NCBI RefSeq assembly: GCF_001610835.1
Contig: NZ_CP011270.1
Location: forward strand, 5,660,001-5,724,000
Reading direction: 5' to 3'
Length of the DNA: 64,000 nucleotides
Source: Planctomyces sp. SH-PL14
Lineage (GTDB): Bacteria > Planctomycetota > Planctomycetia > Planctomycetales > Planctomycetaceae
A model generated the notes under the pieces. It was not told the DNA's origin. It was given only the letters and a program-made list of their open reading frames with translations, and ran no database searches. Shown here in pieces: positions 5,202-58,688 of this stretch (position 1 is the first letter of the stretch; the number at the start of each line of letters is the position of its first letter). The translations under genes and the position numbers were made by a program.

Positions 5202-6968
5202 TCAGGCGATCTTCTCCGCGTGCGGAACCATACCGATCCGCGGCGGGAGCGAGAGGGGAGCCGCGCCCAGCATCTCCCATGTTTCCACAGACAGCACCGG
5301 TCGTCCCGTTCGCTCGTGGATCTCCGCCGCCTGCTGCCGGTTCGACTCGACGAAGCACAACGCTCCCCCGAGTGACCCGTAGGCGTCTGCCTTGAACTCG
5401 GCATGTTTTCGTTCTCCCGGGTTCATCAGCAGCGTCCCGTACTCGACCCCATGCCGCCGCAGCCACGCTTCAGTCTGCGGACGGAACCGTTCAAGCCGTC
5501 CGGTGACAATCGCCATCACCGGAACCCGCGGGAGATGGAGCGGCCGGGCGTTCTCCAGGAACTCGGCATACCGCTCGGCGTCCTTCTCCCGCCAGTCGCC
5601 CGACCAGTCCTCGCAGATGACGCCGTCCATATCGAGAACAAACCGCCGGGCGTGAACACACGCGAGCCACTGCCAGTGAAAGCAGTGCGGGTTGCCGAGC
5701 GCCGCCCCCCAGAAGTCGACACGGCTCTTGCCAACCTCGGTGACGATCGCCGCGGCACGGTAGTGCGGAACGCGGATCCGGCTCCCGATCTCGTCGCAGG
5801 TCTTTCCGCTGTTGACCGAGTCGTCGATGACGAGGACTCTCCCGCGGCCGGTTTCCCGCAACTTCCTGGAGACGGAGGGACGATAGGGCCGCGCGATCAT
5901 CCCCAGGCAAGTCTCGATGGGGACCATCGGGATGTGCAGGTGCTTCGCCACGCCGTTCGCTCGCAGGAAGGAATCGAGTGCGGCCGCCACACGGGCAATG
6001 ACTGCCTGGAGTCTCCCGGTGATTCCGTCGAGGTTGATGCCGTTTTCGCCCTGGGCCCAGATCAGGAAGTTCGTTGCGGCGCCATAGAGCGGCTGAAAGA
6101 TGGTCGCGGCCTCACCCTGGAACGTCTTGGCCAGGTTCCCGATCATCCCGCCGAGGGTCTGGGACTGTTTGTCCATCAACCCGGCAAACCTGTTCCCCAG
6201 GGCGGCGACAAAGGCATCGAAGACGAGATCGGTCTTTACGACTCCCTGTTCGGTGAGCCGTTGCGTCTCCTGGACCGACCGTCCGATCACCTGCGCCAGC
6301 GTTTCCCAGGCGGGAACGCCCGTCTCCTGCAGGGCCTGCATCTGATCGGTTGTGACCTGGCCTGCCGCCTTCATGGCTCCCAGCGCGGCCACCATGCGGT
6401 CCACCTGCTCGGGAGAACCTCCGACTCCGACGGCCGCATTTCCAAGCGACCTCAGAATGGGGATGACCTCCTCAGCCTTCACGCCGAACCCGATCGACTT
6501 CTGAGCTGAGGCGACCAGTCCCGGCAGCTCAAAGGGGGTGCTGGCCGCGAAGGATTCCAGGTCGCGCAAGAGGATCTTGGCCCGCTCGGCGCTTCCCGTC
6601 AGAGCAGTGAAGCTCAGAAGGGCGTTGTCCCGGAGCTTGAGGAGTTCGAACCCCATTTTTCCAACGCTGACAGCGGTGTCGAACATGAACCGCCCAACGG
6701 TGGTGCTCATTCCCACCACAGCCGGGTCCACGGCACGAACGGCGGCCGTAAACCCTTCGGCGGCCTTCTTCACGGCCTCGCGCATCTTCTTCGACGATTC
6801 TTCAACTCCGTCGCTCGCCTTGTCAGCCGCGACATCGATCGCCCGAAACGCCGCGCTCGCCTGAACCTTCAGTCTCTCAACGCTGTAGCCCGCCTCAGTC
6901 AGACCTCGTTTGAACGAGTCGATCTGAATGCTGAGGACGCCGGTCATCGCGCGGAAAGAAGTGCTCAT
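5202..6968 (-). CDS. Chimeric protein: phage tape-measure N-terminus fused to phosphoribosyltransferase and HAD-like domains
   Basis: 588 residues. Residues 1 to about 335 look like the N-terminal part of a siphophage tail tape-measure protein: helical, with 'LSFTALTGSAERA', 'FELPGLVASAQKSIGFG' and 'VTTDQMQALQETGVPAWETLA'. From about residue 341 (KHLHIPMVPIE) the sequence becomes a PRTase-type domain with the PRPP-binding loop VLVIDDSVNSGKT (about 377-389). It then becomes a HAD-like domain starting FVLDMDGVI (about 442). The PRTase part lacks its usual N-terminal strands, so the join looks like an in-frame deletion or fusion. A normal tape measure is longer and is followed by tail-tip genes, which are absent here. 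The gene lies last in a minus-strand run of tail genes. Both domain calls are from motifs; the combined function is unknown. Confidence 0.8.
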   Translation of the reverse strand: MSTSFRAMTGVLSIQIDSFKRGLTEAGYSVERLKVQASAAFRAIDVAADKASDGVEESSKKMREAVKKAAEGFTAAVRAVDPAVVGMSTTVGRFMFDTAVSVGKMGFELLKLRDNALLSFTALTGSAERAKILLRDLESFAASTPFELPGLVASAQKSIGFGVKAEEVIPILRSLGNAAVGVGGSPEQVDRMVAALGAMKAAGQVTTDQMQALQETGVPAWETLAQVIGRSVQETQRLTEQGVVKTDLVFDAFVAALGNRFAGLMDKQSQTLGGMIGNLAKTFQGEAATIFQPLYGAATNFLIWAQGENGINLDGITGRLQAVIARVAAALDSFLRANGVAKHLHIPMVPIETCLGMIARPYRPSVSRKLRETGRGRVLVIDDSVNSGKTCDEIGSRIRVPHYRAAAIVTEVGKSRVDFWGAALGNPHCFHWQWLACVHARRFVLDMDGVICEDWSGDWREKDAERYAEFLENARPLHLPRVPVMAIVTGRLERFRPQTEAWLRRHGVEYGTLLMNPGERKHAEFKADAYGSLGGALCFVESNRQQAAEIHERTGRPVLSVETWEMLGAAPLSLPPRIGMVPHAEKIA

Positions 6969-7028: not shown

Positions 7029-7748
7029 TCAACGGTCCACGTGGCTGGTCTCGAGAACCCAGGGGTCCAACCACTCCCGGGCGGCGGCGGCCGACTCGGT
7101 GATCGACAGAAACGGCTGCAGAGCCATCGGATCGTCCGGGGTCCGTATCCGCAGCAGCGTTCCGTCGGCGAACGCCAGCCAGAATGCCGAGCCGATCCGA
7201 GTCGAGTTCGGACCGACTTCGCCCTTCAGCAGCGCCGGGACTTCGTCACGAGAAATGTCGCCCGGCTGCATCCAGTGGCACTGGGAACTGACGCCGAGAA
7301 CGAAGACCACATAGCTCGGAGGCAACTCCTCGAAGGTCCGCTTCTCCCCCTCGGTCCACCAGGTGTCCGGACCGGTGATCGCCATGACCGACGTCCGGTT
7401 GGATCCCTGCGGGCAAAAGAAGTCCGGTCCGGATGGCTCGTCCCGCAGCCATCGGTTCTCCGCGGATGTCCACCTTTCGTCCAGGTCATAGGGAGTCATG
7501 TGGACGTCTTCGATGAACCGCTGGATCTGGAACCGCCAGCTGGTGCCGGGCGGATCCTTCAGGACGTCCCGAGGGTTGCGATACAGCAACGCCTGGTACG
7601 TCACGAGTCCACCGTAAACATGGCGGCAGTCCCACACGACGTGCTCGGAATCGTTGCGGCAGAACCAGAAGACCGCCGCCGTGATCGGCATCCCGAAGAT
7701 GATTCCATACGCGATCAGGATCCACTTCACGTCCGCCTCTCCCCTCAA
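7029..7748 (-). CDS. DUF1559-like (type II secretion G-like) protein
   Basis: A 239-residue protein with one N-terminal membrane helix (WILIAYGIIFGMPITAAVFWF). The middle reads SWRFQIQRFIEDVHM...LDERWTSAENRWL...FFCPQ, the signature order of the planctomycete DUF1559 family ('SWR..ILPYIE', 'LDEPWDSPHN', 'CP'). It lacks the pilin-type N-terminal methylation motif found in most members. Such proteins are surface or periplasmic with unknown role. It splits the tape-measure chimera from the other tail genes on the same strand and has no visible link to phage assembly. Confidence 0.7.
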   Translation of the reverse strand: MRGEADVKWILIAYGIIFGMPITAAVFWFCRNDSEHVVWDCRHVYGGLVTYQALLYRNPRDVLKDPPGTSWRFQIQRFIEDVHMTPYDLDERWTSAENRWLRDEPSGPDFFCPQGSNRTSVMAITGPDTWWTEGEKRTFEELPPSYVVFVLGVSSQCHWMQPGDISRDEVPALLKGEVGPNSTRIGSAFWLAFADGTLLRIRTPDDPMALQPFLSITESAAAAREWLDPWVLETSHVDR

Positions 7749-7943: not shown

Positions 7944-8348
7944 TCAGGTGCTCACGGCGCTCGATGGGACGAAGCCGCCCGCGTCGTCCACCTCCAGCGT
8001 GACCCCCAGTGACCACTGGTTCGGACCCACCCGCTGGAACGGCAGGCTCGTGTTCACAAACCGGCACGGGCGCTCCACGCCGTCCGTATGCGTGTACGTG
8101 AACTGGGCCGACGGGCCCGCCACCTCGTTGTCGAAAAAGTCCTGCAGGTTGAGCTGGTCCGCGTCCGTCAGGAACGGAAACTCCAGCGACCAGTTCCGCA
8201 GGTTCGTATCGCTCGTCTGATACGCATAGGTGTGCCCCGCCTGGCTCTGTCCCCGCACAAAGCGAGGGACCGGCGTGTAGGACTGGTCCCCCCGCGGACC
8301 GTTCACCTCCACCTCCGCGTCGCCGTGGGCAAACAGGACCGTCGTCAT
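7944..8348 (-). CDS. Phage tail protein (tail-tip/minor tail-like)
   Basis: 134 residues from the ATG at 8348, whose start overlaps the stop of the upstream gene by four bases. The sequence is beta-rich (RNWSLEFPFLTDADQLNLQDFFD, then 'FTYTHTDGVERPCRF', 'QWSLGVTLEVDD'), like small siphophage tail proteins that measure or cap the tail tube. The exact family is not certain. It is co-transcribed with the two tail genes upstream and precedes the tape-measure chimera, which is the expected neighbourhood. An upstream in-frame extension exists but overlaps the preceding gene and is unlikely. Confidence 0.65.
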   Translation of the reverse strand: MTTVLFAHGDAEVEVNGPRGDQSYTPVPRFVRGQSQAGHTYAYQTSDTNLRNWSLEFPFLTDADQLNLQDFFDNEVAGPSAQFTYTHTDGVERPCRFVNTSLPFQRVGPNQWSLGVTLEVDDAGGFVPSSAVST

Positions 8349-8740
8349 CGCTTCCGTCTCCTTCGCTGAGCTCCACCAAGCGGGGTCGAGACCGTCTCGC
8401 CCAGCATCGCCATCCGCCCGGTCATCCACTCCCGGTATCGCCGCGCCGCCCCTTCCAGGCTCACGCCGCGCTCCGTCAGCCACACCACCTGGCCGGGATG
8501 GCTCGTCGCCCACTCCCGTCCGCCGACGCTGTAACAGTTCCCCAGGGCCACAATCCGCTCGGCGTCCGGCATCGACTCATAGACGCTGGGCGGCGGCTCC
8601 CACGACCAGGCGGTCAATTTCCGGGCCCGGTCCAGGACCGCCTTCTGGCCCCGTTTGTCCATGTCGGCGATCGACGACACGCTGATCGCGTCGAGGAGTT
8701 CGTAGCCTCGCTGGCGCTGGACCTCCTGGAAGAGGGCCAT
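8345..8740 (-). CDS. Putative phage tail-module protein, unknown function
   Basis: 131 residues, no signal peptide or membrane segment, mostly helical with a very basic C-terminus (GGAQRRRRKR). It overlaps the next gene by four bases and follows the tail-assembly-like gene by 23 bases, so it is part of one operon. Its position between the tail-tube region and the tape measure suggests a second tail assembly chaperone or a small tail component. No family is recognised by sequence, so the role rests on context. Confidence 0.6.
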   Translation of the reverse strand: MALFQEVQRQRGYELLDAISVSSIADMDKRGQKAVLDRARKLTAWSWEPPPSVYESMPDAERIVALGNCYSVGGREWATSHPGQVVWLTERGVSLEGAARRYREWMTGRMAMLGETVSTPLGGAQRRRRKR

Positions 8741-8763
8741 GACGTCGGCATAGGGCGTGTCGT

Positions 8764-9285
8764 TCAGGTCGCGGGCGGCGAAGCCCCATCGAACAAGTCC
8801 AATGTCGACGAACTGACCCCAGCGGAGCCGGTGCCAGTCGGAGGCGTGGTCGGGGAGGGAGTGGCGGGAGCGAGACGGCTCATCAGGCTTTTCGCGAGCC
8901 GTCCCGCCACGGCGTTTCCCTCGGCGAGGACCAGTTGTTCGATGTCGTTGAGTTCGGAGGCGGCGGTGCTGAGGGCGAGGACGTCGGCGTAGGCGAGGGT
9001 GGCGAAGTCGACGGGCGGGCTGTCACTGGTGGTGCCGAGGCAGCCGCGGACGAGGACTTCGGTGAGGTCATCGATGGCGGAGACGAGGAAGCGGCCGAGC
9101 TGCTGGAGGGCGTCGTGGGAGGGGAGCTGGCCGGAGCGGACGAGGTCGAGGAGGGGCAGGAGTCGTTGGGCGTCCTGGGCGAGGAGGTCGATGAGGGCGT
9201 TTTTGATTTGTTTAGCGGCGCGCCAGGAGAGCGGACCGACGAGGATTTCGCGGCCGTCGGATAGTGGGATGGTTCTGGAGGGCAT
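8764..9285 (-). CDS. Phage tail assembly chaperone-like protein
   Basis: 173 residues. It starts MPSRTIPLSDGREILVGPLSW, a short beta hairpin followed by helices (AKQIKNALIDLLAQDAQRL), and ends in a Pro-Thr-Ser-rich tail. This layout matches tail assembly chaperone/core proteins of siphophages, which bind the tape measure during assembly. Assignment is from pattern and place in the tail gene run, not a clear motif. It is the first gene of the run; repeat L4 begins about 80 bases upstream. Confidence 0.6.
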   Translation of the reverse strand: MPSRTIPLSDGREILVGPLSWRAAKQIKNALIDLLAQDAQRLLPLLDLVRSGQLPSHDALQQLGRFLVSAIDDLTEVLVRGCLGTTSDSPPVDFATLAYADVLALSTAASELNDIEQLVLAEGNAVAGRLAKSLMSRLAPATPSPTTPPTGTGSAGVSSSTLDLFDGASPPAT

Positions 9286-9364
9286 GGAGGTCTCTGGTGA
9301 GAAAGGGAACGTGTCCGTTTATCGGCCAGAGGGAACGAGGGAGCGGCGCGCTCGAGTTTGGCGT

Positions 9365-9580
9365 CCCAAGAACCGGGTCCAGGGGCACCCTGGTGGGGGA
9401 TGCAAGGGGGCAACGCCCCTTTGCCCGCCGGAGGCCCGGTCGTCGAGAGATGTCTGAAGGAGATCGTGTCCAAGCGCGGACAACGTGCCGTATGCCCCCA
9501 CACGGAATCCGCAGGGTCGCAGGGCGGGCGACAAGTCCTCGACGCCGGTTCCACAAGGCGGTCTGGGCCTCATCGTGACG
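9365..9580 (+). repeat. Dispersed hairpin repeat L4 (first module)
   Basis: Reads CCAAGAACCGGGTCCAGGGG, a CCAGGGG/CCCTGG hairpin, GCAAGGGGGCAACGCCCCTTTGC and TGTCCAAGCGCGGACA on the plus strand. It separates the tail operon from the membrane-protein pair on its right. Confidence 0.8.
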
Positions 9581-16677: not shown

Positions 16678-17091
16678 ATGAACCTGCCGGTCAGTCCGTG
16701 TTCGATTGCGTTTGAGCGGTATCAGAATCTGGCCCGTTGGCGGAACCTGTGGACGATTCTGTTGTTTGTGTTCGGGGCGACGGTGATTGTGTTCCTGGTG
16801 GGGACGATCTTTCTGTTCATCCGTCAGGACTGGGTGGTGGGTGTGGTGTCGACGCTGGGGACGATTGTGAACGGGTTTGGTGTGAGCTGGGTGGTAGCGC
16901 GGAGGAATGAGGCGGTGGTGGAGGAGTCAGCGGCGTATGAGGATGTGAAGGTCGTGTGCGGGAGTGGAGGGGGTGGGGGTCCTGGTCTGGAGATGGCGGG
17001 AGGTCCGCGTGAGGGGAGTCCGGAGCGGCCGACGATTCTGCATGATCTGGAGGCCGTGCGTCGCAGTCATCGAGTGTTCGGCAGGTTCTAA
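16678..17091 (+). CDS. Small two-helix membrane protein, unknown function
   Basis: 137 residues with an N-terminal soluble stretch (IAFERYQNLARWRNLW), a strong membrane helix (TILLFVFGATVIVFLVGTIF), a second hydrophobic segment (VGVVSTLGTIVNGFGVSWVV) and a Gly-rich cytoplasmic tail. The start is ATG 16678 with GAGAGGAG upstream. No family can be named. It points toward the tail-tube block, and its TAA is followed at once by repeat L6. Codon use looks more G-rich than its neighbours. Confidence 0.65.
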   Translation: MNLPVSPCSIAFERYQNLARWRNLWTILLFVFGATVIVFLVGTIFLFIRQDWVVGVVSTLGTIVNGFGVSWVVARRNEAVVEESAAYEDVKVVCGSGGGGGPGLEMAGGPREGSPERPTILHDLEAVRRSHRVFGRF

Positions 17092-17097
17092 GGGGGC

Positions 17098-17418
17098 GTC
17101 CAAGAGCCGGGTCCAGGGGCACCCTGGTGGGGAGTGCAGAGGGGCAACGCCCCTTTGCCCGCCGGAGGCCCGTCTCGTCTCGATCTCGCTGAAGGAGCGA
17201 GGGGCCAAGCGCGGACACCGTGCCGTATGCCCCTCACCAACCCGCGGGGATGCAAAGCGAGCGGTGAGTCCTCAACGCCGGGACCACAAAGCGGAAGTCC
17301 GTCGTGTCCCACGGTTCCTCATGGAAATGCCTCCGGCGGCAAGGGGTTGCCCCCTTGACCCCGGCTGCCGTGGAACATTGGGTTTGAGGTATCGGCGTCG
17401 CGCCGGCAAGGACGCTAT
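17098..17418 (+). repeat. Dispersed long hairpin repeat L6 (full-length, between convergent genes)
   Basis: A full L copy filling the space between the TAA at 17091 and the TAG of the tail-tube gene at 17415. It starts CCAAGAGCCGGGTCCAGGGG and ends CGCCGGCAAGGACGCTA. All hairpins are present, including GCAGAGGGGCAACGCCCCTTTGC and CAAGGGGTTGCCCCCTTG. Confidence 0.9.
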
Positions 17419-17942
17419 GCCGATTCGCTTCCGCGGTCGACGCCCACATAGATCTTGCCGATCAGCTCGCCGTCGTCCTGGCTCTCGTCGATACACGCAA
17501 TGAACTGCTGGCTCAGGATCCGGTCGCTCTCATTGTCATGCATCACGCTGATCTCGCCCGTCGGGCAGCACGCCCAGAGCGTGATCGCCTTCGTGTCATC
17601 CGGCTCCGCGATCGGCACAATGTCCAGCCGCTTCTTCTCATAGTACGAACCGGCCCGCCGACCCAGCCCCATGTAAGGCGTCGGATCAGACGTCCCGTCG
17701 GTCCCCTGCTGGAAGATCTCCTGCAGGACCGCCTCCGACCACTCGGCGAGTGGCGCCGTGACCGACGCCTCGTCGCCGATGTTGATGACGTCGACCGGGC
17801 TATTGCCGTACCGGTCAACGACGCGGTTCCGCGTCCCCTTGGTGTAGGTGAACTCGATCCCTCCCTGGGTGTGGCCAATGTCCTGATTGGCGACCTTCAG
17901 GATCGCGGCTCCCCCGGTAATCTCACGCAGTGCGGCGGCCAT
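17415..17942 (-). CDS. Phage major tail (tail tube) protein
   Basis: 175 residues without export signal. The chain is beta-rich with features of siphophage tail-tube proteins: IEFTYTKGTRNRVVDRYGNSP, then DVINIGDEASVTAPLAEW, and a C-terminal VMHDNESDRILSQQF. Its 5' neighbour two bases away is a tail completion gene, the normal order. The stop codon touches repeat L6. This protein would polymerise into the tail tube around the tape measure. Confidence 0.7.
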   Translation of the reverse strand: MAAALREITGGAAILKVANQDIGHTQGGIEFTYTKGTRNRVVDRYGNSPVDVINIGDEASVTAPLAEWSEAVLQEIFQQGTDGTSDPTPYMGLGRRAGSYYEKKRLDIVPIAEPDDTKAITLWACCPTGEISVMHDNESDRILSQQFIACIDESQDDGELIGKIYVGVDRGSESA

Positions 17943-18897: not shown

Positions 18898-19226
18898 CCC
18901 ACCGGGTCCAGGGGCACCCTGGTGGGGGATGCAAGGGGGTCACCCCCCCTTGCCCGCCGGAGGCCTGGCCGTCGAGAGATGTCTGAAGGAGAGCGTGTCC
19001 AAGCGCGGACAACGTGCCGTATGCCCCCTCACCTGCGACGCGAGGAGTGCGAAGCGAGCGGTGTAGTTAGAGGGAGTCCTCAACGCCGGTACCACAAAGG
19101 GGACATCCGTGGTGTCCCACGGTTCCTCATCGAAGCGCCTCCGGCGGCAAGGGGTTGCCCCCTTGACCCCAGCGGCCGTCGCACGTTGGGCTTGAGCGAT
19201 CAGCGCTGCGCCGGCGGGCGCGTCTT
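18898..19226 (+). repeat. Dispersed long hairpin repeat L7 (full-length, between convergent genes)
   Basis: A complete L copy lying exactly between the stop of the plus-strand zinc-ribbon gene (18894) and the TAA of the minus-strand lipoprotein gene (19225). Stems include CCAGGGGCACCCTGG, GCAAGGGGGTCACCCCCCTTGC, TGTCCAAGCGCGGACA and CAAGGGGTTGCCCCCTTG. Confidence 0.9.
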
Positions 19227-21616: not shown

Positions 21617-22093
21617 CTACCGGCCACCATCCATCTGAACCACCTTCTTCAACCGCTTGATCGCCCACTCCTCAATCGCCATGAACGCCGGCCGCAGGAA
21701 CGGCATCTGTTCGCCCGCCCCGCCGCCCCCTGCGTCCTTCGCCGGCCACGACCGCACCGCCTGGCTGTCCGTCACGTCAGGAGCTGTCCCGATCGCCTTC
21801 ACCGCCCCGCCGGCAATCCACTCCGTCCCAAACTCGATGTGCGGCGCGTACTCCTGATTGCTCCCGACGGCGGCAAAGAACTCGGACCCCTCCCGGCCGC
21901 TCTCATGCAGCAGTGTCGCTCCCAGCGCCCCGGTCTCAACCGGTACCCGCCGCCGCGCCTCCGCCGCCCAGCGGGCCGCAATGACCTCCATCTCCCGCTC
22001 GAGCTCCTTCTCCGCCTCCTCACCAAACCGCCGCAGCGACTGCGCGAACGCGTCGAGACCACTCCATCGAAATTGAACGCTGCCGGATGCCAT
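21617..22093 (-). CDS. HK97 gp10-like phage head-tail protein
   Basis: 158 residues from ATG 22093. The layout is that of the HK97 gp10 family: N-terminal FRWSGLDAFAQSLRRF, helix EAEKELEREMEVIAARWAAEARRRVPVETGAL, then EYAPHIEFGTEWI. The family acts at the head-tail joint. It stands alone among non-phage genes: the thioredoxin gene converges from one side and a nitrilase diverges on the other. A Gly-rich insert (DAGGGGAGEQ) precedes the C-terminal helix MPFLRPAFMAIEEWAIKRL. Confidence 0.85.
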   Translation of the reverse strand: MASGSVQFRWSGLDAFAQSLRRFGEEAEKELEREMEVIAARWAAEARRRVPVETGALGATLLHESGREGSEFFAAVGSNQEYAPHIEFGTEWIAGGAVKAIGTAPDVTDSQAVRSWPAKDAGGGGAGEQMPFLRPAFMAIEEWAIKRLKKVVQMDGGR

Positions 22094-22220
22094 ACCACTC
22101 CATCGGCCCGCCGTCGCCTCGTGTCGACGGATTTCCCGAAGTCGTTCCACCCGCGGCGGTGACGGCAGTCCTGGTTCCCGCGATGCTGTCTTCATTGGAG
22201 ACAACGAAGGGCCCCCGCCA

Positions 22221-22949
22221 ATGAGACTCTGCGCCGCACAGATCCAGCCGACCGCCGGAGACATCACCGCCAATCTCTCCCTGCACCGCGCGGCGATCGA
22301 GCGGGCCCTCGCGTTCGGAGCGGAGCTGATCATCTTCCCTGAGCTCTCGCTGACCGGCTACGAGCCGACCCTCGCGGCGGACCTCGCGATGACAGCGGAC
22401 GACTCCCGCCTCGGCCCCTTCCAGGCCCTCGCGGAGGAACGCGGACTGACGATCGCCGTCGGGCTCCCGCTCCAGGCGGGCTCCGGAGTCGAGATCGGCC
22501 AAGTGTGGTTCCAGCCCGCCGCGCCGCGACTGACCTATTCGAAAATGCTCCTCCACGTGGATGAGCTCCCGTACTTCCGGAGCGGCACGCGGCAGGTCCT
22601 GCTCCGGCAATCCGGGCACGTCCTGGCTCCCGCGATCTGTTACGAGTCCCTCCAGCCCGAGCACGCGGAGGCCGCCGCCGGTGCGGGGGCGGACGTCTAT
22701 CTGGCGAGCGTGGCGAAGTCTGTCGGCGGGGTCGATCGGGCCTTCGTCCACTACCCGGCGATCGCCCGGCAGCACGGCATGGCGGTGTTGATGGCGAACT
22801 CCATCGGTCCCTGCGACAATTTCGTCGCCGCCGGACGCTCTGCGATCTGGAGCCCGCGAGGCCAACTCGTGGACCAGCTCGACGCGGATGCCCAGGGCGT
22901 CCTGGTCTTCGACACGGAGACCGGCGCGGCCGAACGGACCACGTGGTGA
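22221..22949 (+). CDS. Carbon-nitrogen hydrolase (nitrilase superfamily)
   Basis: 242 residues, cytoplasmic. The catalytic triad is visible: Glu41 in FPELSLTGYE, Lys108 in TYSKMLLH and Cys140 in PAICYES. These enzymes hydrolyse amides or nitriles with ammonia release. The sequence is short but complete, ending with ESL...VLVFDTETG. The substrate cannot be read from the sequence. The gene begins 128 bases from the divergent gp10-like gene. Confidence 0.9.
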   Translation: MRLCAAQIQPTAGDITANLSLHRAAIERALAFGAELIIFPELSLTGYEPTLAADLAMTADDSRLGPFQALAEERGLTIAVGLPLQAGSGVEIGQVWFQPAAPRLTYSKMLLHVDELPYFRSGTRQVLLRQSGHVLAPAICYESLQPEHAEAAAGAGADVYLASVAKSVGGVDRAFVHYPAIARQHGMAVLMANSIGPCDNFVAAGRSAIWSPRGQLVDQLDADAQGVLVFDTETGAAERTTW

Positions 22950-25301: not shown

Positions 25302-25324
25302 TCGGAACATCCGCTGTCTCGAAC

Positions 25325-25652
25325 CGCGTCCTTGCCGGCACAGCGTGATAGCTCAAACCCAATGTGCCACGACAGCCTGGGGTCAAGCGGCCAAAAAGCA
25401 CAGGCCTCCTTGGCCCGGGAGGCACTTCCATGAGGAACCGTGGTGCACAACGGATGTCCCCTTTGTGGAACCGGCGTTAAGAACTCACCGCTCGCCGTGG
25501 AATCCACGCGGGTTGGTGATGGGGCATCCGGCACGTTGTCCGCGCTTGGACACGATCTCCTTCAGACATCTCTCGACGGCCAGGCCTCCGGCGGGCAAAG
25601 GGGCGTTGCCCCTCTGCACTCCCCACCAGGGGTTCCCCCTGGACCCCGGCTC
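25325..25652 (-). repeat. Dispersed long hairpin repeat L9 (full-length)
   Basis: A complete L copy beginning directly after the stop of the head-tail adaptor gene (GGGGTCCAGGGGGAACCCC, minus-strand sense). The second-module stem is interrupted by a short GGCC-bounded insert (GGCCAAAAAGCACAGGCC) that also occurs in L12. Confidence 0.9.
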
Positions 25653-26001
25653 AGGCACTCGCCCGCAGCAACGCCTTCAGAAACTCACCGTGACCCGTCT
25701 GATCAAACACGGCCATCACCTGATACGTCGCACACGTCGACATATCCCGGATCCGGTCATTCTCCACGCCCCCCGGCTTCGCCCGCAGCGACGTCTCAAA
25801 CGGAAAATACCCGACCGCTTCGAACACCACCTGCTGCCCGCCGATCGTGACCTCTTCGGTCCCCCCTTTGACCCGCAGGCTGTACCGCACCCCCGAACAG
25901 ACGGGAACAAAGTCCGCCGTCGGCTCATAGTGGTTGCCGGCGGTCGGCTCGCGGTCCATCCACCGCAGGATCTCGCACTCGTTCCCAAACAGATCGTCCA
26001 T
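25651..26001 (-). CDS. Phage head-tail adaptor protein
   Basis: 116 residues. The pattern FGNECEILRWMDREPTAGNHYEP ... SGVRYSLRVKGGTEE ... VFEAVGYFPFET fits the small beta-barrel head-tail adaptors of HK97-like phages, and the position directly after the connector supports it. The start codon and the connector's stop share one base. Its stop lies at the first base of repeat L9. Confidence 0.65.
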   Translation of the reverse strand: MDDLFGNECEILRWMDREPTAGNHYEPTADFVPVCSGVRYSLRVKGGTEEVTIGGQQVVFEAVGYFPFETSLRAKPGGVENDRIRDMSTCATYQVMAVFDQTGHGEFLKALLRASA

Positions 26002-26624
26002 CAGATCACCACCTCCCGGTACTGCCCGATCGTCGATAGCACCCCCATCGGCAGCTTTTCAAACCCGCCCCCCGTCGCCAGCGTATAGCTGTAATCCCCC
26101 AGCGACTGATCGCTGTGCAGCAGCCCCCGCTTCCGCGCCTGCCGCGCCAGCGCGAGCATCTGATACAGGCACGCCTTCAAATCCGCCGGACAGGTCTCGG
26201 CCGTATAGCCCGCGGTGAACACGACCTTGATGTTGTTCCGCCCCACCGGCCACAGCGGCCCGCTCTCCTGCCGCGACCACAGGACCGAGTCCCGCATCTC
26301 GATGCACCCGGCATTCCGCTCATGCGGCCGGCTGTCGACGAGCGCGTAGTGCGTCCCCGCCGCCAGTGACTCCAGCACCGCCCCCCGCGGCCCATCGAGA
26401 ATCTCGACGGACGCGACGGCAGTCACCGGCCGCTGCGGCAGATAGAGCGACGGCATCCCGCTCCCGCTCAGGTATTCGGTGTGGACCTGGCTCTCCAGCC
26501 GCCGGGAGAGCGCGGTGTCGAGCCCTGCCTGCACGGCCTCGATTGCCAGGTCGAGGAACGGGTCATCGGCGGAGCCGGCCAGTCCCAGCCAGGTCTTGGC
26601 GTTCGCGCGGGTGATCAGAGCCAC
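26001..26624 (-). CDS. Phage gp6-like head-tail connector protein
   Basis: 207 residues. The N-terminus MALITRANAKTWLGL...DDPFLDLAIEAVQAGLDTALSRRLE is the helical signature of gp6-like connectors. It then has a beta region (TEYLSGSGMPSLYLPQRPV) and a C-terminal helical bundle starting CPADLKACLYQMLALARQA. It would form the ring below the portal. Its start overlaps the upstream gene by ten bases, so it belongs to one operon. Confidence 0.85.
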   Translation of the reverse strand: MALITRANAKTWLGLAGSADDPFLDLAIEAVQAGLDTALSRRLESQVHTEYLSGSGMPSLYLPQRPVTAVASVEILDGPRGAVLESLAAGTHYALVDSRPHERNAGCIEMRDSVLWSRQESGPLWPVGRNNIKVVFTAGYTAETCPADLKACLYQMLALARQARKRGLLHSDQSLGDYSYTLATGGGFEKLPMGVLSTIGQYREVVI

Positions 26625-27906: not shown

Positions 27907-29325
27907 TCAGCCGACGACCAGGTCGTCAATCAAAACAAACGCTTCCTCGCGTCGCGGACGGCCGTCGACGTGCTGGATGGCCCGGATCGAGGTCCGGTCG
28001 TTGAGGAAGTTCGTGCTCATCGTGTTGTTCAGGACGAACTCGATGACCCCGTGCCGACCCAGCAGGTACTCGGAGAAGACGCCCCCCACCAGGCAGCTCA
28101 GGTCCGTCGCCGAACCCTTCGCCCGGTCGCTGGGGACCATGCTCGACTTGATGTAGCTGTACGGACCCAGGCGGCTCTTCTCGACGTCGACGACGAACGC
28201 CCCCTTGCCGTCGCCGCCGCTGACCGCATCGGCCCGCCGCGTCGCCAGGTAGGCCATCATGGTCGGCCGGACGAGCCAGGTGAAATTCGTCGTGTCGACG
28301 TTCCGCTCGGCGACGAGCGACTCCGCCAGCATCAGGTCCTGCGGCTCCAGCGTGTCGCCGTCGGTGCCGGGACTCGACGCCGCGTGCGGCAGGACGCCGT
28401 CGTAGGCGATCAGCCCCTTCGGCTTCACGTCGCTCACCGCCGTGTTCCTCAGCAGCGTCGCGTTCAGCTCCTGGCTCAGGGCGTTGGCGATCTGGTTGCG
28501 GAGCATCAGCTCGGTCTGCGGGCTCGAGAACCGCAAGAGCTCGTTCGGCATCGTGACGATGCAGGCCAGCTTCTTGACCCGCATGTCGATCGAGCCGGAG
28601 GTCGGCGTGCTGGGGGTGATCGTCCCCGCCTCGCCGATCCAGTAGGCCGTCGGGTCGCCGGTGATCCGCGGCCACTGGATCGAGCCGTTGAGCGGGAAGG
28701 TGAACTCGGTGCACCCGGCCGCGGTGAAGACCTCCTTGGCCCGCAGCAGGTCGATCAGCTCTCCCTGTTGCGTCGGCCCGAGGAAGACGCCGTAGACGGT
28801 GTCGTCATAGATCGACAGATCCTGGTTCCGCCGCCGGGCCTGCCAGGCCGCGTGCCAGCGGGCTTCGTCGGGATCGCATCCCACCACTCCCTGCCGGACG
28901 ATCGACTGGATCTCGGCCCGCTCGCGGTCATCGAGGTACTGCAGATGGCTTGCGCCGATGGGAGCCAGGAGCGACGCTCCGTCGAGTCCCACGCCGCCGA
29001 AGCCGACCTTGTGGAGCCGGTCGCTGACGTCGAACTCGATCTTGGCGAACTTTCGCGGCTCGCGGTTGTCCGGGTGCATCGCCTGGACGAGCTTGGAGAA
29101 GCTGTAGCCGCGGCTGGAGAGGGGATTTTCGCCTTCGCGGATGGCGGGGGCTCCGCCGCCGAAGAGTTGGCTGCGGGCGTTGACCCGCGGCCGGCGGGCG
29201 TCGTCGAGTGCCCGTTCGAGATGTTCCTGCTTTTCGACGAGCGGCTGGATCGCCGTGTCGACCGCTTGTTTGACGACGTCGGCGACGTTGCCGACGTCGG
29301 ACTCGGTCTCGGAGTGAATTCGCAT
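27907..29325 (-). CDS. Phage major capsid protein, HK97 fold
   Basis: 472 residues from ATG 29325. A helical N-terminal scaffold-like region (residues 1-50, ADVVKQAVDTAIQPLVEKQE) is followed by the HK97-type capsid domain. Recognisable elements are FPLNGSIQWPRITGDPTAYWIGEAG, VKKLACIVTMPNELLRFSS, ALSQELNATLLRNTA, TWLVRPTMMAYLATRRA and a C-terminal RTSIRAIQHVDGRPRREEAFV. The order and length match the family. It would build the head; the N-terminal delta region may be trimmed by the protease encoded upstream. The frame is intact. Confidence 0.93.
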   Translation of the reverse strand: MRIHSETESDVGNVADVVKQAVDTAIQPLVEKQEHLERALDDARRPRVNARSQLFGGGAPAIREGENPLSSRGYSFSKLVQAMHPDNREPRKFAKIEFDVSDRLHKVGFGGVGLDGASLLAPIGASHLQYLDDRERAEIQSIVRQGVVGCDPDEARWHAAWQARRRNQDLSIYDDTVYGVFLGPTQQGELIDLLRAKEVFTAAGCTEFTFPLNGSIQWPRITGDPTAYWIGEAGTITPSTPTSGSIDMRVKKLACIVTMPNELLRFSSPQTELMLRNQIANALSQELNATLLRNTAVSDVKPKGLIAYDGVLPHAASSPGTDGDTLEPQDLMLAESLVAERNVDTTNFTWLVRPTMMAYLATRRADAVSGGDGKGAFVVDVEKSRLGPYSYIKSSMVPSDRAKGSATDLSCLVGGVFSEYLLGRHGVIEFVLNNTMSTNFLNDRTSIRAIQHVDGRPRREEAFVLIDDLVVG

Positions 29326-29469
29326 TCCTGCCCTGATGTGTGGGGTTGGTGGAGGTGGTTGGAAGTGGTTCCACGGGTGAATCGGCACGTGGGGGTGAGG
29401 GGCGCGCACGTTCGAGGTTCGCGGGGTCCAAACCAACGTCCCGCGCTCAGGAATTCGAAGAGTTGGAAA

Positions 29470-30050
29470 CACAGAGGCGCAGAGGGCACGGAGGTGTTGC
29501 GTGAGTGAGTGTTGAGAGGCTCATGAACGCTTCTGGCGGAGAAGGGGTGCCACAGATGAACACGGATCAACACAGATGAAGGCAAGGAGGCAGACCTTGC
29601 AGCCATACCGGCCCAAGAATCGGGGTCCAGGGGGACCCTGGTCAGGGGGTGCAGGGGGGAGAATCCCCCTTGCCCGCCGGAGGCCTGGCCGTCGAGAGAT
29701 GTCTGAAGGAGCGCGTGTCCAAGCGCGGACGCGGTGCCGTATGCCCCCTTACCAACCCGCGACGAGTGCAAAGCCAGCGGCGTGGTGTCCAGGGAACTCT
29801 CATTGCGGGGAAGTCCCGTCAGGGACGGCCGAAAATAGCCCACCCTTTCAAGGGTGGGGCTGCGGTCGACGGCCAGGCCTCCGGCGGGCAAAGGGGCGTT
29901 GCCCCTCTGCACTCCCCACCAGGGGTACCCCCTGGACCCCGATCCTTGGGCCGGTGAAGCTGCGACGACAGACGCACTCCCGCCTCTGTCTGTGTTGATC
30001 CGTGTTCATCGGCGGCCCCTTCTCTCCTTCCTCTGCGCCGCACGCCCGTG
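29470..30050. repeat. Large inverted repeat holding L10a and L10b
   Basis: Arms (G)ATGAACACGGATCAACACAG at 29555-29576 and, inverted, at 29989-30010, with GGCGCAGAGG at 29478-29487 and 30030-30040, enclose two opposed L copies: L10a (29605-29800, plus) and L10b (29868-29960, minus). A CCCACCCTTTCAAGGGTGGG hairpin lies between them. The whole sits between the capsid gene and the protease gene (gap 29326-30064). Confidence 0.85.
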
Positions 30051-41249: not shown

Positions 41250-41257
41250 GGCGCCGC

Positions 41258-41575
41258 TTGCCGGCGAAGCTTCCATAGCTCAAACCCAACGTGCCACGGC
41301 AGGCTGGGGTCAAGGGGGCCACGCCCCCTTGCCGCCGGAGGCACTTTTATGAGGAACCGTGGAACACAACGGACGTCCGCTTTGTGGAACCGGCGTTCAG
41401 GACTCCCCGCTCGCTTCGTAATCCCCGCGGGTTGGTGAGGGGGCATACAACACGGTGTCCGCGCTTGGACACGGGCTCCATCAGACATCTCACGACGAGA
41501 GGGCCTCCGGCGGGCAAAGGGGCGTTGCCCCTCTGCACTCCCCACCAGGGGCGAGCCCCTGGACCCCGGTGATTT
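41258..41575 (-). repeat. Dispersed long hairpin repeat L11 (full-length)
   Basis: A full L copy with the second module near the M28 stop and the first module (CCGGGGTCCAGGGGCTCGCC, minus sense) toward Ku. Stems include GCAGAGGGGCAACGCCCCTTTGC, TGTCC/GGACA, and CAAGGGGGCGTGGCCCCCTTG. The remaining 260 bases up to the Ku start hold no gene. Confidence 0.85.
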
Positions 41576-41843
41576 GGGCCGCAATGGTGGGGACGCCGAT
41601 TCCGTCTCCATGGCTGGCTGAGCGAAACGCCGCAGCCGTGATCGACGGACGGACAGCCTCCCCCACACCTGAACACCGTTCAGCCCCAACCCCCAGATCC
41701 CAGCCCCGCGAGGACATACGACAAACTGACCCGCCGATCCCAAACGGGCACACCCGCTGCATCACCTCCGTCGGCAAACAGGGAGCCCCAAAGGACTGCG
41801 TATTCACGGACGGCATCTCTTCACCCCCGTCCGGATCGCCAAC

Positions 41844-51467: not shown

Positions 51468-51640
51468 GGCCACCGGGTCCAGGGGCACCCTGGTCAGGGG
51501 ATGCAAGGGGGAGAATCCCCCTTGCCCGCCGGAGGCCTGGCCGTCGAGAGATGTCTGAAGGAGTCGGTGTCCAAGCGCGGACAACGTGTCGTATGCCCCC
51601 TCGCCAACCCGCGAGGAGTCCAGAGCGAGCGGTGTCGTGT
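51468..51640 (+). repeat. Dispersed hairpin repeat L15 (first module)
   Basis: CACCGGGTCCAGGGGCACCC, a GCAAGGGGGAGAATCCCCCTTGC stem and TGTCCAAGCGCGGACA in plus orientation. The stretch 51372-51938 otherwise holds no gene that I can support. Confidence 0.85.
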
Positions 51641-51938
51641 GAGCGAGTCTTCACCGTCCGCCCCCGCAGTGCGGAGATCCGTGGCATCGCGCCGCGAGAC
51701 GCGCTCTCCGGCCCTGTGGGCCGCTGGTCCCCGCTTAACCCGCGCCGGGGAATCCACCCTCGTCCGTTCCGTGGTCGTCGGCTTCGTGTTTGCCCGATCG
51801 GTGTCCATCCGCGGCTGCCCCCCCTGGAACTCCCTGCGCCGGCTCGTCCGTTGACGCTGGTCCTTTCCGCAGGTCAGACTTCAACCGGCGACTTCCAGGG
51901 AGGCGTCGCCGGGGTCGGGACGGAAGGCAGGAGGAGTC

Positions 51939-57413: not shown

Positions 57414-58688
57414 TCAGTCGGCCGGGGCGTTGGTCCCCTGTTCCGTCTCGTCGCGGCTGTCGGCCGGTGCGACGGGGGGACTCGCCACTCGCGTCAGCAG
57501 GATCGGCTGGCGGGCTTCGGGGGTTCCCAGCGGGGCGTAATTGCGTTGGACTCGCAGCTCGTCGAGCGAGGCGATCCCTTCCTTCGCATCCGCGGCGAAG
57601 TCGAGCCGGCGGGCTTCGGCGTCGTCGGGAACGAGGTCTTCGAACCAGACCTGGAGGTCGGGGTCGAACCGCCTGGCGAGGTGCTCCGTCAGGGCCCCGG
57701 CGATGTACCGCCGCATGGGGTTGATGGCGGTGTTGTACCAGACCCGCTCGCTCACCTCGGCGGTGGCCCGGTTGAGGTCGTGGGCGATGCCGACGGCGAA
57801 CCGCGGCACCTTGTGGAGCGCCAGGACGTTGTCGCGGAGCTGGTCCGCCTGCTCGCCGGTCAGCATCTCGTTCGGCTTCACCGACCAGGGAACCGCCTTG
57901 ACCCCCGGCGGCTGAACGATCGGCCGGCCCGCCTGGGCGAAGCCGCGGTAACGGGCCATGAACTTCTCGCCGATGGCGTCGAGAAGCTCCGGCGTCACCG
58001 AATGATGGACCTCCTTGTCGATCTCGATCAGCATCGACTGCAGCGGTCCGTGCTCATAGGTCTGGTGGCGGGCCCGCTCGATGATCTCGCTGGAGAGAAT
58101 CCACTCGGCGCCCGCTTCGGTCGGGCTGAGCGGGACCGACTTGCTCGTGGGGTGCTTGCCCTGGATGCAGACGATTTCGTCGGCGCCGACGTCAAAGGGG
58201 GCGCCGCCGCCGGGCGTGATCGTCCAGCGGCGGGCGACCCCGTCGCGGTCGGTCTTGGCCTCGGCCCAGGGGGTGGGGATGACCCACAGTTCCGCGGGGA
58301 GGCCGAGACCGTCGGGGACAGCCCAGAGGACGACGCGGCGGAAGAGGCCGAACTGAAGGAAGATCTCGTAGGCGAGCCCCTGCCAGAAGTCGACTTCGTT
58401 GCAGTAGGCAAAGAGGCGGGCGAGCGGGTGTCCGGGATCGGCGACCCGTTCGCCGTCGACGAGATAGCCGACGTGCGGCGTATCCTCCGCCGCCTTCTGG
58501 GCGTTGGCGTCGATGGCGATGAAGTTCCACAGTCGGCAATGGCGGGCTTGTTCGCGGGTGAGGCGGAGGTCGCGGGCAAGGTCGCTGGTGGCTCCGGAGC
58601 CGAGGCCGAGCGGAAGCGGGGAAGGGGAGGCGACGGTGGACTGGCGACGGGGCTGGAAGGTGTCGGCGAACGAGGGAGCGATTGGCAT
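57414..58688 (-). CDS. Phage portal protein
   Basis: 424 residues. Portal features are present: N-terminal LRLTREQARHCRLWNFIAIDANAQKAAE, a clip/stem part with PAELWVIPTPWAEAK, and a C-terminal region with NRATAEVSERVWYNTAINPMRRYIAGALTEHLARRF, which matches the conserved portal stem helix. The length fits HK97/SPP1-type portals. It would form the DNA entry ring. In a normal phage the prohead protease gene follows immediately; here the next phage gene downstream lies 26 kb away. The frame is intact. Confidence 0.9.
   Translation of the reverse strand: MPIAPSFADTFQPRRQSTVASPSPLPLGLGSGATSDLARDLRLTREQARHCRLWNFIAIDANAQKAAEDTPHVGYLVDGERVADPGHPLARLFAYCNEVDFWQGLAYEIFLQFGLFRRVVLWAVPDGLGLPAELWVIPTPWAEAKTDRDGVARRWTITPGGGAPFDVGADEIVCIQGKHPTSKSVPLSPTEAGAEWILSSEIIERARHQTYEHGPLQSMLIEIDKEVHHSVTPELLDAIGEKFMARYRGFAQAGRPIVQPPGVKAVPWSVKPNEMLTGEQADQLRDNVLALHKVPRFAVGIAHDLNRATAEVSERVWYNTAINPMRRYIAGALTEHLARRFDPDLQVWFEDLVPDDAEARRLDFAADAKEGIASLDELRVQRNYAPLGTPEARQPILLTRVASPPVAPADSRDETEQGTNAPAD

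Follow-up and report, generated by a model that had tools for sequence, protein, structure and literature searches.

Structure of the chimeric gene

The window, i.e. the whole stretch of 64,000 nucleotides of the Planctomyces sp. SH-PL14 genome that was analyzed here, contains an open reading frame in which the N-terminal part of a phage tail tape measure is joined to a truncated phosphoribosyltransferase (PRTase) domain and a HAD-type phosphatase domain. The frame is read on the minus strand, from 6968 to 5202, and has no internal stop across its 588 codons. The coordinates of this gene and of the surrounding features are given in Table 1. The N-terminal part scores 85.7 bits as a member of the TMP_3 family, above the curated cut-off of 41, and further matches come from the NCBIfam model tape_meas_nterm (8e-11) and from a number of PHROG tape-measure families, the best at 2.6e-34. 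The tape-measure homology stops at residue ~335, thus the chimera is not a full-length tape measure.

The C-terminal part (residues 340-567) is 46% identical (E 7e-58) to a protein from another genus of the same bacterial family (genome G011) and 49% identical (tblastn) to a protein on the IMG/VR viral contig L068. It retains the PRPP motif VLVIDDSVNSGKT with both aspartates (the DD pair), the FVLDMDGVI motif, and all invariant residues of the HAD motifs (DxDGxxC, T, R, K, and E-S). The two halves are alike in codon-position GC, and neither of them has a second copy in the host genome, which is represented by one contig of 8.44 Mb with a completeness of 100. An earlier reading of this DNA from the sequence alone had assigned residues 1 to about 335 to a tape measure and the remainder to PRTase and HAD domains, leaving the strand unstated; the profile matches and the homologs at 46-49% bear out both assignments.

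The joint was placed by alignment of the chimera with nine relatives. Within the GxPRSGxxPA motif, the residues R, S, and G, conserved at 90% or more in the alignment with 58 viral relatives, are absent from the chimera, as are the helix and the strand ahead of this loop. Since the joint falls inside the motif, the first PRTase strand and the loop have been lost while the HAD motifs remain. This missing G-x-P/A-R-S-G segment agrees with the sequence-only reading, in which the PRTase lacked its N-terminal strands; the PRTase identity of the domain also stands, whereas its start, formerly set at about residue 341, moves to a junction at L335-R336-A337, nt about 5966-5958. There is no close relative to show precisely where the break fell or what the ancestor looked like, and the joint coordinates are approximate.

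Table 1. Positions of the chimeric gene, its parts, and the neighboring prophage genes and repeats in the window
Feature	Position	Strand	Evidence or remark
Chimeric ORF (tape-measure N part, truncated PRTase, HAD)	5202..6968	-	588 aa, ATG start
Tape-measure-derived part, residues 1-335 (TMP_3 domain 120-284)	5964..6968	-	PF20155, E 4.4e-24; alignment with tape measures of relatives
Fusion joint, residues 335-338 (L-R-A-N)	~5957..5966	-	PRTase-HAD homology starts inside the GxPRSGxxPA motif
Truncated PRTase domain, residues 337-440	5649..5960	-	Family alignment; R-S-G motif absent; weak fold match
PRPP motif VLVIDDSVNSGKT, residues 378-390	5799-5837	-	Within the truncated PRTase domain
HAD-type phosphatase domain, residues 441-567	5268..5648	-	Invariant residues all kept; phrog_415; Foldseek top match Pnkp1
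ORF of 239 aa lying among phage genes but not identified as one	7029..7748	-	A second locus of the genome has a weak paralog
Virion structural protein, 134 aa	7944..8348	-	phrog_384, 3e-8; 34% homolog directly upstream of the G134 prophage tape measure
Small tail gene, in frame -1 with respect to the adjacent chaperone-like gene	8345..8740	-	L164 homolog, 1.5e-12
Tail assembly chaperone-like gene (named by position and length)	8764..9285	-	L164 homolog of equal length and order, 1.7e-5
Major tail protein	17415..17942	-	39% to L164 gene, 6e-36; phrog_2175, weak phrog_117
Tail completion / Neck1 protein	21617..22333	-	phrog_5, 1.8e-17; L164 homolog
Head-tail stopper-like and adaptor genes	25651..26624	-	phrog_442, 1.2e-25, for 26001-26624; L164 homologs
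Major head protein	27907..29472	-	phrog_617, 2.4e-34; 35% over 479 aa to L164
Portal protein	57414..58688	-	phrog_2662, 6.5e-38; 32% to L166 portal
Interspersed repeat copies (others exist)	670-1010, 2560-2757, 9360-9561, 16900-17450, 18901-19216, 25321-25652, 29599-29980, 41257-41587, 51472-51860

Structure models

AlphaFold models of the C half of the chimera and of its intact relative L068 were searched against the PDB using Foldseek. In the C-half model (mean pLDDT 87.6) the HAD domain is confident, with values above 90 over most of its length. For this model, nothing in the PDB reached E 0.001; the best HAD match was Pnkp1 (0.0012) and the best PRTase match had E 0.028 and TM 0.32. The model of the intact L068 protein matched E. 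coli XGPRT with E 2.4e-7 and TM 0.70, and altogether had 165 PRTase fold matches at E 0.001 or better. As judged from the models, the PRTase fold match is lost in the truncated chimera, and the intact relative is predicted to be a PRTase.

Surrounding prophage

The head and tail genes in the window are all located on the minus strand, follow the canonical order, have no frame breaks, and are spread over at least 50 kb. Between them lie host-type blocks that include Ku, LigD, a penicillinase repressor, a radical SAM protein, a carbon-nitrogen hydrolase, and PAP2. The structural genes align gene by gene with a prophage of genome G134 (L164 and L166 in Table 1), and the order of the genes at 8764-9285, 8345-8740, and 7944-8348 matches that of the genes upstream of the G134 tape measure, which itself belongs to another family than the N part of the chimera. 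Altogether, the region 5202-60621 of the minus strand holds an HK97-type head-tail set (portal, head, adaptor, stopper, Neck1, major tail protein, chaperone, and tape measure), all intact except the fused tape measure. A search of the host genome for the G134 terminase gave no match at the sensitivity used. The chaperone-like gene and the overlapping ORF in frame -1 (8345-9285) have the layout of G/GT frameshift pairs in other phages and are by this arrangement a candidate for such a pair.

On the other side of the chimera, there are fibre genes on this strand, at window coordinates -3746 to -6245 and so beyond the window's edge, 9-11 kb further left, and a same-strand fibre homolog likewise follows the PRTase-HAD gene in L068. 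No tail-tip genes were detected within 40 kb on either side of the chimera at the sensitivity used, and to this extent the previous remark that none remain nearby holds true.

An interspersed repeat, mostly 100-350 bp in length, occurs at 37 places in 144 kb and often adjoins prophage blocks. As markers of prophage block ends the repeats were rejected, since 6 of 14 ends lie within 200 bp of a copy compared to 25% of other gene ends, a difference that is not significant (p 0.11). The copy at 29599-29980 contains a match to the Acido-Lenti-1 RNA of Rfam (42.9 bits, 29812-29858, minus strand).

Occurrence of the two genes in related elements

A scan with the family alignment identified the PRTase-HAD protein on 109 viral contigs of IMG/VR, 80 of which were taken for locus comparison. 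With at least these 109 carriers among viral contigs, PRTase-HAD is a broadly phage-borne family, for which we found no name. Its loci (L068-L147 and L022-L031) are partly near tail genes, and their proteins differ in N-terminal extensions.

Both genes are present as separate genes in the prophage L028 of genome G206 and in 14 viral contigs, which represent about nine distinct phages. In each of these 15 loci, as counted with a tape-measure profile seeded by the N part of the chimera itself, the tape measure lies upstream of PRTase-HAD on one strand, with a gap of 3.3-4.2 kb; the reverse order or the opposite strand was found in none of the 15. A tape measure followed by PRTase-HAD also occurs in L027 (genome G028), the tape measure being of another family. 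In L110 and L114 the gap is filled by several genes in tail-tip position, and small holin-like genes come after, both being named by position or appearance. Of 90 loci, 75 showed no related tape measure in the stretch examined, and in two viral contigs (G324 and G333) a TMP_3 protein is instead encoded downstream of PRTase-HAD, hence this gene order holds for only a part of the family.

Thus, to the question raised by the sequence-only reading, whether relatives carry two genes or the same fusion, these loci answer with two genes. The fusion was not seen elsewhere among 59 relatives and 298 genomes of the class, and neither was an independent family with the same three-part layout, which the sequence-only reading had named as evidence against its own interpretation. 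Two genomes considered as fusion carriers (G206 and G070) were rejected, both parts being present there but at separate places. Scans of genome contigs and viral contigs with the whole chimera gave no matches; alignment of its C half with relatives was needed.

The tape-measure part is present in 971 cultured phage records, while the C half was absent from such records at the sensitivity used. Tape measures of relatives that align with the N part of the chimera have 462-658 aa. The closest of them is 38-40% identical and comes from genome G041, and the nearest PRTase-HAD proteins (G011 and L068) belong to elements other than that of this nearest tape measure. The L068 contig had no TMP_3 match.

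Origin and state of the chimera

The chimera probably arose during prophage decay, in which the tail-tip segment was lost and two phage genes were fused into what is likely a non-functional relic. The ancestral prophage would have encoded on one strand the chaperone, a tail structural gene, the tape measure, several tail-tip genes, the PRTase-HAD gene, and fibre genes. The loss of a segment, presumably of roughly 4-5 kb, would have cut off the tape measure's C-terminal part and the beginning of PRTase-HAD along with all tail-tip genes between them, and the remaining halves would have happened to meet in frame. We infer a single deletion as the cause. Because the chimera follows ordered tail genes and is followed by fibre genes with the tail tip missing, the lost piece would be the one that separates the tape measure from PRTase-HAD in relatives. 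A deletion joining two genes had already been proposed in the sequence-only reading, and the two-gene order in relatives supports it, although recombination between two prophages fits as well.

The tape-measure part would be unable to set the tail length, as neither its C-terminal portion nor the tail tip remains, and the PRTase, stripped of its first strand and the GxPRSG loop, would be unable to bind PRPP normally. Folding may still be possible for the HAD domain, and phosphatase activity could persist. Most likely, the chimera would be a relic without selected function, either translated or silent.

Two observations run counter to a deletion within a single prophage, namely that the nearest relatives of the halves are found in different elements and that the G134 tape measure is of another family. 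An illegitimate recombination joining the tape measure of one prophage to the PRTase-HAD gene of another would leave the same trace as a deletion, and the first of these observations keeps it as a rival; the L068 record without TMP_3 is in line with such an event. Phage genomes are mosaics, which also favors it. We nevertheless regard this course as unlikely, since the order and strand of the halves are those of every one of the 15 loci that carry a tape measure and PRTase-HAD, the flanking genes on both sides keep the prophage order, and the codon-position GC is similar in the two halves.

The relic interpretation, in turn, has to be weighed against the unbroken 588-codon frame and the intact HAD motifs, which would also fit selection. 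The fusion as a new functional protein, e.g. a HAD phosphatase on a tape-measure head domain, would account for the open frame, for the retention of every invariant HAD residue, and for the nearby prophage genes being intact as well. We consider it very improbable, however, because the fusion was found once and no relative in the genomes searched has its layout, the PRTase is truncated, and the open frame taken by itself is a weak argument for selection, since a stop would arise from only 3.1% of its single substitutions. It is harder still to credit that the fusion is expressed and selected as part of a wider domestication of the scattered intact head and tail genes, with the tape-measure head domain carrying the HAD phosphatase. 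An assembly error at the joint is similarly far-fetched in view of the complete single-contig genome and the absence of a second copy of either half that would be open to mis-joining.

As a probable product of prophage decay, the chimera is a fresh instance of this known process. It illustrates that prophage decay can yield a long in-frame chimera, and gene callers will annotate such products as real multidomain proteins. Two by-products of the analysis are possibly weightier: (i) the phage-borne PRTase-HAD family, encoded after tail-tip genes in part of its members, and (ii) a prophage with intact structural genes that are ordered yet scattered among host genes.

Comparison with known protein families

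The N-terminal 335 residues of the chimera, including the TMP_3 domain, resemble the tape measures of the TMP_3 family (PF20155). In contrast to these, the chimera has no C-terminal part, whereas the tape measures of relatives continue to their full 462-658 aa and are followed by tail-tip genes. With the phage PRTase-HAD family, residues 337-567 align end to end, at 24-47% identity in the family alignment and up to 49% by tblastn, and all ten invariant residues are retained. Unlike the members of this family, the chimera is devoid of the N-terminal helix, strand, and GxPRSG loop. It also lacks N-terminal extensions of every kind, an example of which is the glycosyltransferase-like part found in L068. 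The latter was recognised by eye and was assigned no Pfam name.

Bacterial glycans are known to receive ribofuranose from enzymes that combine a PRPP-dependent PRTase with a HAD phosphatase (PMC11127046; PMC10299916), and such gPRT and HAD-phosphatase ribofuranose transferases include Bcs3 of H. influenzae (PMC10299916). In the proteins described there, ribose-5-phosphate is transferred to a glycan at the expense of PRPP and its phosphate is removed (PMC11127046; PMC10299916). The combination of a PRPP-using PRTase fold with a HAD phosphatase is shared by these transferases (PMC11127046; PMC10299916) and the intact phage proteins, while the chimera differs from them in lacking a complete PRTase. 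The likeness to gPRT is that of the domain pair; other PRTases and Pnkp1 are among the best 60 of 125 matches in the PDB profile search. Several PRTase-HAD copies adjoin methyltransferases, and the G134 prophage has glycosyltransferases and a methyltransferase just after the tail tip. Some bacterial copies are found in glycan-type clusters; together with the glycosyltransferase-like part of L068, this suggests that the intact phage PRTase-HAD proteins may act like the gPRT-HAD transferases. By analogy with these enzymes, it is a reasonable guess that the intact phage proteins decorate a glycan.
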